Source of the DNA: Halomarina litorea
GTDB lineage: Archaea > Halobacteriota > Halobacteria > Halobacteriales > Haloarculaceae
Length of the DNA: 64,000 nt
Direction: 5' to 3'
NCBI RefSeq assembly: GCF_024227715.1
Contig: NZ_CP100448.1
Location: forward strand, 434,001-498,000
Numbering within the stretch: the first letter of the stretch is position 1; each line of letters begins with the position of its first letter. Made by a program: the position numbers and the translations under genes. Positions 5,611 to 54,131 of the stretch are shown here, piece by piece. The notes beneath the pieces are model-generated. The model was given only the letters and a program-made list of their open reading frames with translations, had not been told where the DNA came from and searched no databases.

Positions 5611-5724
5611 GACAACTCGCTGGGCGGACGGGCACCAGTGGGCACCTGCCTCGGCAGGTCGGGATGTGACTCGCGTCCGGAGGACGCCGGGTTGAACCAC
5701 GCAACGCCCGTCGGTGATTACACA
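5611..5724 (+). promoter_or_regulatory. structured 5' leader of the L15e gene
   Basis: The predicted leader folds into a compact three-way junction. GACGGGC (5627-5633) pairs with GCCCGTC (5706-5712) over 7 bp and encloses two perfect hairpins: ACCTGC/GCAGGT (5644-5649 with 5654-5659, CTCG loop) and GCGTCC/GGACGC (5673-5678 with 5682-5687, GGA loop). The closing stem ends one base before GGTGAT, the likely ribosome-binding site, so folding could affect initiation. Autoregulation by a ribosomal protein is a reasonable guess. It could instead be a separate small RNA. The pairing is seen directly; the function is inferred. Confidence 0.5.
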
Positions 5725-43443: not shown

Positions 43444-43821
43444 ATGAGCACCACGACACTCCCCGACCCCCTGCGGGAATCGCTCGTCAGCGCCTCTCGC
43501 ACCGCAATCGGTGACGACCTGCGGAGCCTCGTCTACTTCACGCCCGACGAGTTCGAGCAGTTGTACCTGCGAAGCGACCTCGAACGCGGCGCGGCCCTCG
43601 ACGCCTTCGTCGAGAACGAACGCCACGGCGTGGACGCCCAGCAGACCTACGGCGACACGGAACTGGGCGACTACGAGTACACCGTCCGGGCGTTCTCCCA
43701 CGGCTACGTCGTCCGCGTGATGCACGGCGACCGGGGCGCGTTCGCGACCACCGACCGCATGCCAATCGCCCAGTTCGAGGAGGTGGCGACGGCGATGCGG
43801 AAGGTACTGGCCGAGAAGTGA
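43444..43821 (+). CDS. conserved haloarchaeal hypothetical protein
   Basis: A 125-residue acidic protein: SLVYFTPDEFEQLYLRSDLE, FVENERHGVDAQQTYGDTEL and GYVVRVMHGDRGAFATTDRM. It resembles a family of small proteins widespread in haloarchaea (I believe DUF7522, from memory). No function is known. A perfect palindrome CGGTTGGCCAACCG lies in the upstream spacer at 43268-43281, and a weak promoter-like ATTGATAAC at about 43396-43404. Confidence 0.7.
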   Translation: MSTTTLPDPLRESLVSASRTAIGDDLRSLVYFTPDEFEQLYLRSDLERGAALDAFVENERHGVDAQQTYGDTELGDYEYTVRAFSHGYVVRVMHGDRGAFATTDRMPIAQFEEVATAMRKVLAEK

Positions 43822-43867
43822 AACACATCTCTCCTCCGTTTCGAGTCCGATAGTTGGTCGCTCCCGT

Positions 43868-44100
43868 CTGCCCTGTCGGATTTGAACCAGACCTCGCACC
43901 TCCCAGTTGCTCGACAGTTCAAATCCGGGTCGGCCCCTCCGACGCGAGTTGCTCGGCTCTCGCACACGCCTCGCTGCCGCTCGGCGGTGCTCGATGGTGA
44001 CGCGCGTCAGAGATGGGCCCTGCCGGATTTGAACCAGAGGAAGACGGACCGCTCGCTCCGCTCGCGGTTGCGACTTCCTTCATTCAAATCGGCAGCGGTG
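43868..44100. repeat. two tRNA-tail foldback elements
   Basis: Unit A: a 21-base near-copy of the tRNA(CAU) 3' region (43870-43890, one mismatch) faces an inverted copy, GGATTTGAAC at 43878-43887 against GTTCAAATCC at 43917-43926. Unit B: a 25-base exact copy (44013-44037) extends into AGGAAG and faces CTTCCT plus an inverted, slightly shortened tail at 44074-44095; its core is CGCTCGCTCCGCTCGCGG. About 20 bases of the tRNA's downstream flank are also copied with unit B. No gene is visible here. Confidence 0.75.
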
Positions 44101-44134
44101 ATTCGACACGACGCGCTGACGCGCGTCGGTCTCA

Positions 44135-44243
44135 TGGGCCCTGCCGGATTTGAACCAGCGATCACCCGGTGTCCCACGGACCTGCCACGACGACAGCGAA
44201 CCGATATGAGCCGGGGGCTGTAACCAGACTTAGCTAAGGGCCC
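44135..44243 (-). tRNA. tRNA with CAU anticodon and 34-base intron
   Basis: Acceptor GGGCCCT pairs with AGGGCCC, discriminator A. T-arm GCTGG/CCGGC has loop TTCAAAT, and anticodon stem CCCGG pairs with CCGGG. The anticodon loop CTCATA is interrupted after position 37 by a 34-base intron (44171-44204), the usual archaeal splicing position. Exon 1 is 44205-44243 and exon 2 is 44135-44170. The anticodon CAU fits elongator tRNA-Met, whose haloarchaeal genes usually have an intron; tRNA-Ile2 (modified CAU) is the alternative. CCA is not encoded. Confidence 0.85.
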
Positions 44244-44267
44244 TCGTTTTCGCGTGAACGCCCCGTC

Positions 44268-44282
44268 GTCAAGTAGTTTCCT
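44268..44282 (-). promoter_or_regulatory. tRNA(CAU) promoter
   Basis: GAAACTACTTGACG on the minus strand resembles a BRE/TATA element and ends about 25 bases ahead of the tRNA start. Confidence 0.45.
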
Positions 44283-44327
44283 CTCCCTCGCCGACAGACC
44301 CAACCGTCCACCCTGCCACTTCCACGC

Positions 44328-47551: not shown

Positions 47552-47577
47552 GTGAGCGCCACCGCCAGGGCTCGAAC
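47552..47577. repeat. 26-base copy of the tRNA-Asn tail
   Basis: This segment is identical to 47699-47724, which covers the last 21 bases of the tRNA-Asn gene and 5 bases of flank. The copy has no matching 5' part. Between the copies lies a foldback with arms CTCAC/GTGAG (47657-47661 and 47699-47703) and an inner pair CGGTC/GACCG (47666-47670 and 47683-47687). The 5' edge of the copy also faces an imperfect inverted CGCCTCAC near 47597-47604. Confidence 0.75.
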
Positions 47578-47703
47578 ACGCCCGGAGGTTCCTGCTCGCC
47601 TCACGACATTCGGCTCCGCGGACTGCCTCCGGTCTGCTCGACCTCTCGACGCGGCACTCACGGAACGGTCGCTCGCGGACGAGACCGCTCGCAGAAATGT
47701 GAG

Positions 47704-47776
47704 CGCCACCGCCAGGGCTCGAACCTGGGACAACCTCGTTAACAGCGAGGTGCTCTACCAGCTGAGCTACGGCGGC
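47704..47776 (-). tRNA. tRNA-Asn (GTT)
   Basis: A 73-base cloverleaf with all stems intact. Acceptor GCCGCCG pairs with CGGTGGC (one G-U), discriminator G. D stem is GCTC/GAGC, the anticodon loop is CTGTTAA giving GTT, and the T arm is CCAGG/CCTGG with TTCGAGC. No intron is present, and CCA is not encoded. Confidence 0.95.
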
Positions 47777-53801: not shown

Positions 53802-53874
53802 GTCCTGGTAGGGTAGTGGACTATCCTCTTGGCTTGCGGAGCCAGGGACCGGAGTTCAAATCTCCGTCAGGACG
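53802..53874 (+). tRNA. tRNA-Arg (GCG)
   Basis: A 73-base cloverleaf. Acceptor GTCCTGG pairs with TCAGGAC (one G-U), discriminator G. T arm is CGGAG/CTCCG with TTCAAAT. Anticodon stem TTGGC/GCCAG holds the loop TTGCGGA, which places GCG at 34-36, so it reads CGC and CGU codons. CCA is not encoded. A TTTTC tract follows at once and may end transcription. Confidence 0.92.
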
Positions 53875-54131
53875 TTTTCAGGTGCGCAACGTCGCGAGCG
53901 TAGCGAGCGACCGCGCACCGAAACGCCGCGCGGTGATTTGAGCAGACGAGACGAGCGCCAGCGAGTCTCGGCGCGTTCAAATCTCCGTCAGGACGCTTAC
54001 TTCACAACCGCAGAGCGGTTCGCTCGTGCGCGCCCTGACGTGCCTCACGCTCGTTTCGTCGCCGGCGCTTCGCGCCGGCTTCCAGCGGGACCTTCGGTCC
54101 CGCGCAGCTCGCGTGAGACTCCGTCAGGACG
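53875..54131. repeat. tRNA-Arg tail foldback array
   Basis: No gene is visible. A 21-base copy of the tRNA tail (53975-53995) is the right arm of a foldback whose left arm has GATTTGA at 53935-53941; the core holds CGAGAC/GTCTCG. A 13-base copy (54119-54131) is the right arm of another: CCTGACG (54034-54040) and CTCACGC (54044-54050) face GCGTGAG (54111-54117) and CGTCAGG (54122-54128). Inside that loop are two perfect 8-bp hairpins with TTC loops (54061-54079 and 54085-54103). A further palindrome, GGTGCGC..GCGCACC, begins at 53881. Confidence 0.8.

Follow-up and report, generated by a model that had tools for sequence, protein, structure and literature searches.

Cassette-like arrays at the 3' ends of haloarchaeal tRNA genes, possibly remodelled by recombination at the tRNA tail

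Downstream of a tRNA(CAU) gene in a 64,000-nt stretch of the Halomarina litorea genome (contig NZ_CP100448.1, positions 434,001 to 498,000; hereafter the window), the 3' tail of the tRNA recurs twice, each time facing an inverted copy of its T-arm. The resulting foldback is one instance of a widespread haloarchaeal system: in Halomarina litorea more than half of the tRNA genes sampled, and many across the class, are trailed by structured, fast-changing units that copy the tRNA end. These units have a common anatomy, end in tails specific to the local tRNA, run with it and have inner stems that covary; congeners differ by whole units and by their order, and near-identical inner hairpins are common to different tRNA genes. 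Taken together, we believe these features point to cassette-like arrays that are anchored at haloarchaeal tRNA 3' ends and remodelled by recombination at the tRNA tail, a reading to which we give a probability of about 0.45.

The intron-containing tRNA(CAU), which we take to be the elongator methionine tRNA, was overlooked by ARAGORN run without introns and matched by the Rfam tRNA model; the parts of its locus are listed in Table 1. The tail copy of unit 1 is exact over 21 nt (44014-44034), and its identity extends to the 25 nt (44013-44037) that the initial annotation of this DNA had reported. That annotation also placed a second copy at 43870-43890, with one mismatch in 21; it is the same copy that closes unit 2, but the earlier placement omits the diverged acceptor end, and over 43867-43887 it differs at 3 of 21 positions. 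At no more than five mismatches, chance gives 0.29 matches per shuffled tail on both window strands. Successive tail copies are spaced 121 and 147 bp, and the inverted T-arms lie 46 nt (unit 1, 44082-44093) and about 28 nt (unit 2, 43917-43929) from their tail copies. Both inverted arms claimed earlier are therefore present, but the large foldbacks claimed with them are strong in only one case: unit 1 (the former unit B) folds at -44.1 kcal/mol, with z -3.8 against shuffled sequence, whereas unit 2 (the former unit A) is no more stable than shuffled sequence (z -0.7). The AGGAAG..CTTCCT extension of unit 1 beyond the tRNA tail is there as described. Of the roughly 20 bases of downstream flank said to be copied as well, a shared GACGCGCGTCA stands, but the flanks of the tRNA and of the copy diverge after CAT before reaching it, and the shared part is itself mostly palindromic. 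As that annotation held, these are not plain single attachment repeats; paired inverted arms prove to be a recurring feature. An integrated element bounded by the copies, which plain attachment sites would predict in sister genomes, was not seen at tRNA(CAU) in the three congeners whose array could be read (G003, G004 and G005), where further, differently ordered units are found. The earlier interpretation of the tRNA(CAU) foldbacks is thus partly supported.

Table 1. Tail copies and associated features at tRNA genes of the window
Feature	Position	Strand	Basis
tRNA gene, anticodon CAU, intron-containing	44135..44243	-	Rfam tRNA model, 49.8 bits
3' tail of tRNA(CAU), GGTTCAAATCCGGCAGGGCCCA	44135-44156	-	tail comparison
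Unit 1 (alpha), trailer segment	44094..44134	-	homologues of the alpha trailer in three congeners
Unit 1, inverted T-arm (5' arm of foldback)	44082..44093	-	sequence comparison
Unit 1, inner hairpin, type I core GAAGTCGCAAC..GGTCCGTCTTC	44036..44081	-	fold z -3.8
Unit 1, exact tRNA 3' tail copy, including acceptor end and discriminator	44014..44035	-	
Unit 2 (gamma), trailer segment	43930..44013	-	sequence and congener comparison
Unit 2, inverted T-arm	43917..43929	-	sequence comparison
Unit 2, inner segment, degenerate, weak hairpin	43891..43916	-	folding and sequence
Unit 2, terminal copy of the tail, with 3 mismatches in 21 and a diverged acceptor end	43867..43888	-	
Exact 21-nt tail copy of tRNA-Asn (gene 47703-47776, minus)	47557..47577	-	
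Exact 21-nt tail copy of tRNA-Arg (gene 53802-53874, plus), preceded by inverted T-arm and hairpin	53975..53995	+	

Each of the three tRNA genes of the window (Met-CAU, Asn and Arg) is followed by an exact copy, 21 nt long, of its own 3' end. The initial annotation had proposed a scan of the other tRNA genes of the genome for the same arrangement; the arrangement does recur, on a scale that it had not foreseen. We sampled the tRNA loci with the best tRNA scores, and in the window genome (G000; 30 of 42 genes, n = 30) an own-tail copy with at most 4 mismatches in 21 lies within 400 nt downstream of 17 of 30. Upstream the count is 0/30, none of the 30 reaches the threshold with any of 50 tail shuffles, and at all 17 the own tail fits better than that of every other tRNA. 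A distant haloarchaeon (G058, picked after it had shown matches; 30 of 42 genes, n = 28, two having no recognised T-loop) gives 9/28 downstream and none upstream, the own tail again fitting best in 9/9. A third genome (G040, picked for having no exact palindrome; 30 of 48 genes, n = 29, one dropped) gives 7/29 downstream and 2/29 upstream, with the shuffled control reaching the threshold at 1/29 and the own tail best in 5/7. In a Methanosarcina-like control genome (G309; 30 of 54 genes, n = 30) tail copies occur at 3/30 downstream and 5/30 upstream, and are attributed to duplicated tRNA genes. The exact T-arm palindrome, GGATTTGAAC-N22-52-GTTCAAATCC, is found in 82 of 145 genomes of the class, the reversed pattern giving 0 matches, and sampling across the phylum finds it in 30 of 53 genomes of the class and in 0 of 241 others. 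A scan of named genomes returned at least 80 loci with the palindrome; among the matches listed, 73 are haloarchaeal by title, and of the 82 palindromes in these loci, 70 follow a tRNA on its strand, none precedes one, 2 overlap with a tRNA call and 10 are in loci without a tRNA.

Two occurrences outside the haloarchaea may reflect transfer or convergence: in a Woesearchaeota metagenome-assembled genome (MAG), a tRNA-Ser is followed by a T-arm palindrome that ends in the exact tail of that tRNA (L158:6376-6440), and a Methanomassiliicoccales MAG contains a T-arm palindrome as well (L212:3010-3079).

Read on the tRNA strand, a unit runs from a trailer segment, often a hairpin itself, through an inverted T-arm, an inner hairpin, a T-arm and the acceptor end and discriminator of the local tRNA, to the next trailer. 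The tallies of spacing, orientation, pairing, covariation, decay, module sharing and genus grouping were made on loci drawn mostly from palindrome or core searches rather than at random, and a unit was counted when its arms differed from the T-arm of its tRNA at no more than 2-3 positions, a criterion biased towards arms that match. The orientation and acceptor tally and the count of identical inner modules exclude the Methanosarcina-like control loci (L288-L317). On this basis units are about 80-145 bp long, tail copies lie most often at a distance of 75-125 nt, with secondary peaks around 200-250 and 350 nt, and arrays hold one (144), two (45) or three (9) recognised units. The inner hairpin runs with the tRNA in 239 of 261 units and against it in 9 (13 undecided), and for the type I core the orientation is 68 to 0. 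The 12-nt acceptor part is without mismatch in 172 of 261 tail copies (189 loci). It is scarcely paired within the foldback, so pairing alone does not explain its exactness; another cause is needed, and recombination that refreshes the tail fits. Tail copies decay mostly at the distal end of the array: the acceptor is exact in 58 of 63 non-terminal copies and in 27 of 54 terminal ones (p = 3e-7). The idea, formed by eye, that the 5' arm continues its pairing into the acceptor end was rejected, such pairing being near background (ungapped pairing 0.27-0.39 per position; outer end 31/215, against 17/215 when shuffled). Behind tRNA-Asp of two Haloferax species (L182:262-320 and L217:4727-4785), the following unit has the acceptor end GTCACACCCG, which is not that of tRNA-Asp.

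The inner hairpins form recurring families. Many genomes share the type I core, AGTCGCAGC..GACCGTCT, and a related core, GGAAGTCGCAGC..GACCGTCTTCC, occurs in 55 of 141 class genomes; it is a stricter form, to which the window copy itself is no exact match. Standard pairs make up 96.5% of the pair cells in 102 type-I-like hairpins, compared with about 82% when shuffled, and both sides have changed in 11 of 18 pairs. A search with the core alone makes no demand on the arms and is therefore independent of the bias towards matching arms. Of its 30 loci, 22 follow a tRNA on the same strand, one is near a tRNA on the opposite strand and seven have no tRNA nearby, at least four of the seven being a different dispersed repeat that contains the same core. 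At all 22 tRNA-linked loci an inverted T-arm (≤3/11 mismatches) directly precedes the core; a tail copy follows it in 15 (≤4/21), the acceptor is kept in 16 (≤1/10), and the local tRNA's own tail is the best fit in 19. Where tRNAs have unusual T-loops, the arms are correspondingly unusual. Since the arms follow the local T-arm at 22/22 of these loci, they are not terminal inverted repeats independent of the insertion site, as miniature inverted-repeat transposable elements (MITEs) or REP-like elements would have. Inner modules are more alike within a genus across tRNAs than at the same tRNA across genera (0.174 versus 0.129; 0 of 500 permutations), as judged from 74 of 296 units in a chosen list of genera. 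The other dispersed repeat, GGTGGGACTNAAAGG..CTGGGGCTTTGG, is itself structured and holds the type I core near position 1501 of four loci of one haloarchaeal family (L350, L351, L353 and L354).

At the level of whole arrays, the tRNA(CAU) locus was compared between the window and G003, G004 and G005, the loci of three further genomes (G001, G006, G007) being missed by the search pattern. The unit order is alpha-gamma in the window, alpha-beta with a truncated beta in G003, and beta-alpha in G004 and G005; the inner hairpin of alpha is type I in the window and of another type in G003 and G005. Between two other genomes, G060 and G045, whole-unit differences occur at tRNA-Ser, tRNA-Pro and tRNA-Gly, with trailer and hairpin modules newly combined. 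In G060 an identical 38-nt inner module stands at tRNA-Ser and at tRNA-Pro behind unrelated trailers, the Ser copy with the exact tail of its tRNA and the Pro copy slightly diverged. In all, 32 cross-isotype pairs have inner modules at least 92% identical; fewer than 10% of trailer 8-mers are shared in 29 of them, and in 14 the two acceptors are clearly distinct, each copy having retained its own. Two tRNA-Val genes of the window genome (L082 and L084) have about 140 nt of downstream trailer in common, with a foldback and tail copy at only one of them; the likeness stops just before the foldback.

Polarity, permutation and module sharing are consistent with recombination at the tail. Each unit comprises a trailer segment together with a foldback bounded by T-arms, and successive units join at the local tRNA tail, made up of T-arm and acceptor end. 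In the model that we favour, units would be gained and lost by recombination at this tail, the crossover lying either in the acceptor end or close to G53/T54 of the T-loop, and only units with a matching tail would survive, because insertion at a tRNA would replace its 3' end. The palindrome may act as a folded recombination site, somewhat like attC in integrons, and a covarying palindrome of fixed orientation, judged by that analogy, fits a site recognised as a folded strand. From these data we infer a site-specific recombinase, for which a tyrosine recombinase would be the natural candidate. A bolder form of the model, which we put forward only tentatively, sees an integron-like system without genes, in which T-arm palindromes would be the folded sites that insert short modules at tRNA 3' ends, the matching 3' end would be renewed each time, and tRNA genes would anchor shuffling arrays genome-wide.

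Several observations weigh against these models. Exactly identical inner modules at two isotypes are rare (1 of 281 distinct inner sequences), and occupancy is patchy, with only 7/29 in G040, where the 2/29 upstream matches show a contribution of duplicated tRNA genes. No circular or empty form of a unit was seen, phage records gave no match, and plasmids gave none to the window unit and one weak match to a Halorubrum array. No recombinase was found. A tblastn search of 120 loci with five integrase open reading frames of the window genome gave 0 matches, a weak result from own-genome queries alone, at least some of whose frames look wrong, and one in which IntI itself was not searched. The sole integrase seen beside an array, at L338, is part of an inserted element, and a general link to its family was rejected, since only 3 of 30 relatives' loci have a T-arm palindrome within 900 nt upstream. 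Unequal crossing-over and deletion, finally, could also yield permuted orders. At L338, the start of the integrase (419 aa, PF00589) and a small T-arm palindrome at the end of the element are about 30 nt apart. A viral origin was likewise considered and rejected: the pattern gave six stretches in viral contigs, by appearance bifidobacterial prophage sites, and none was taken as haloviral. Palindromic sites of the apparent bifidobacterial prophages (L094-L098), CATGGATTTGAACC..CCAGAGG..GGTTCAAATCCATG, have T-arm copies face to face and are perhaps palindromic attP sites and perhaps a parallel to the haloarchaeal foldback.

The main rival, which we consider possible though on balance unlikely, is that the units are functional trailer RNA, transcribed behind the tRNA, with foldbacks that act in RNA and arrays that change by ordinary recombination. 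The foldbacks might serve in processing of the 3' end, control read-through, yield a small RNA, or form a switch whose inverted T-arm has two alternative partners, the tail of the tRNA itself and the copy. The strong stem covariation and fixed internal motif of the 102 type-I-like hairpins speak for it, as does orientation with the tRNA; the inner part moreover folds better as RNA on the sense strand (176, against 83 for the other strand), and sense-strand mismatches are G-A far more often than T-C (798 versus 79). A directional folded-DNA site, however, predicts orientation and covariation too, and the inner stems do not show the G-U preference that might have proved a function in RNA, G-T not being favoured over A-C (94 versus 210). 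Trailer RNA also leaves the exact, scarcely paired acceptor copy without a role in the foldback, and several tRNA genes of the window genome have no units. RNA function and recombination may operate together.

We regard as improbable a neutral by-product of tandem duplication and template switching at the tail, with quasi-palindrome correction keeping the arms matched. The arms are palindromic by nature, the terminal copies decay, and in one genome (G170) the core stands in tandem triplicate at 272-bp spacing, all of which such a process would accommodate; but the inner hairpins fall into families that recur and share a conserved core, by eye they are unlike copies of neighbouring tRNA sequence, and the palindrome is confined to the class in the phylum-wide sample. 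Template switching as the sole origin was rejected on the same visual comparison, the inner parts being unlike tRNA complements. Very unlikely, in our judgement, are attachment scars, left by ordinary elements that entered at the tRNA tail and later lost their interior: direct repeats of the tail are the classical att signature, elements appear inserted at tails, and one element end beside an integrase has a small T-arm palindrome, but the spacing of tail copies has preferred values, the inner families are conserved, and neither the weak tblastn search nor the relatives of the L338 integrase gave a general integrase link. At 121 and 147 bp, the window copies bound no integrase-bearing element, nor do tail repeats at tRNA(CAU) in the three congeners. 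As read from their sequences, inserted elements at L175, L190/L330, L200, L329 and L338 appear to separate the tRNA body from an array at the element's far end, and att-type insertion and tail arrays thus appear to coexist. A tRNA-Val near an integrase of the window genome was considered as a plain att scar and set aside, there being no distal tail copy within 19 kb.

Among known systems, the cassette arrays of integrons are tandem small units of fixed orientation with an imperfect palindrome, attC, at each boundary; the units permute and decay away from the anchor, and attC is recognised as a folded strand, its core sites being RYYYAAC / GTTRRRY. The haloarchaeal units, too, are each bounded by an imperfect palindrome, lie in one orientation, permute and decay away from the anchor, but their anchor is a tRNA tail, their 80-145 bp leave no room for a reading frame, and the core GTTCAAA of the T-arm GTTCAAAT departs from GTTRRRY, with C where R is required. 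The rtT repeats of E. coli tyrT (Rfam RtT) are copies of the tRNA 3' end downstream of the gene, known from one or a few operons, with a longer period and no known T-arm foldback; as a repeat of the tRNA 3' end downstream of its gene, rtT is the nearest precedent of the tail arrays. REP/BIME sequences are short, dispersed, palindromic DNA without genes. Searches with cmscan (E ≤ 1) of window positions 43800-44300 and a Halorubrum array gave no match to the RtT covariance model (presumably RF00391) and no Rfam family for the inner hairpins.

RtT RNA is treated in sections of PMC4986893. PATEs and SMRs of Haloquadratum, as described in part of PMC3119063, are likewise short, dispersed, palindromic DNA without genes; in the haloarchaeal units, unlike these and REP/BIME, the arms copy the local tRNA and the position is fixed downstream of tRNA genes. 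Archaeal integrative elements that target tRNA genes (SNJ2, pNOB8 and SSV types) also have an exact tRNA 3'-end copy as a direct repeat, according to the relevant passages of PMC8371274, a review of archaeal tyrosine recombinases. The units differ in being too short for an integrase, in containing a foldback and in affecting more than half of the tRNA genes sampled in one genome, and real elements appear to lie between tRNA and array. In the portions consulted of that review and of the Haloquadratum genome paper (PMC3119063), att-type tail repeats bound elements, with partial tRNAs kilobases away, and are not tail arrays; those of PMC2584109 make no mention of tail arrays. We found no published description of the units in the open-licence literature, although a report in a subscription journal could exist.

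If the units are recombination cassettes, they would be a gene-free counterpart of integron arrays and would offer a reason why integration is tolerated at haloarchaeal tRNA ends. Should they act as RNA, they would form a class of tRNA trailer structures, as yet without a name, in model organisms that have been studied well. On either reading they confound searches for integrated elements that start from tRNA ends, and both readings are directly testable in Haloferax, Haloarcula and Halorubrum. Elsewhere in the window, positions 5645-5703 on the plus strand match the euryarchaeotal leader of ribosomal protein eL15 (Rfam RF03144, 41.4 bits).
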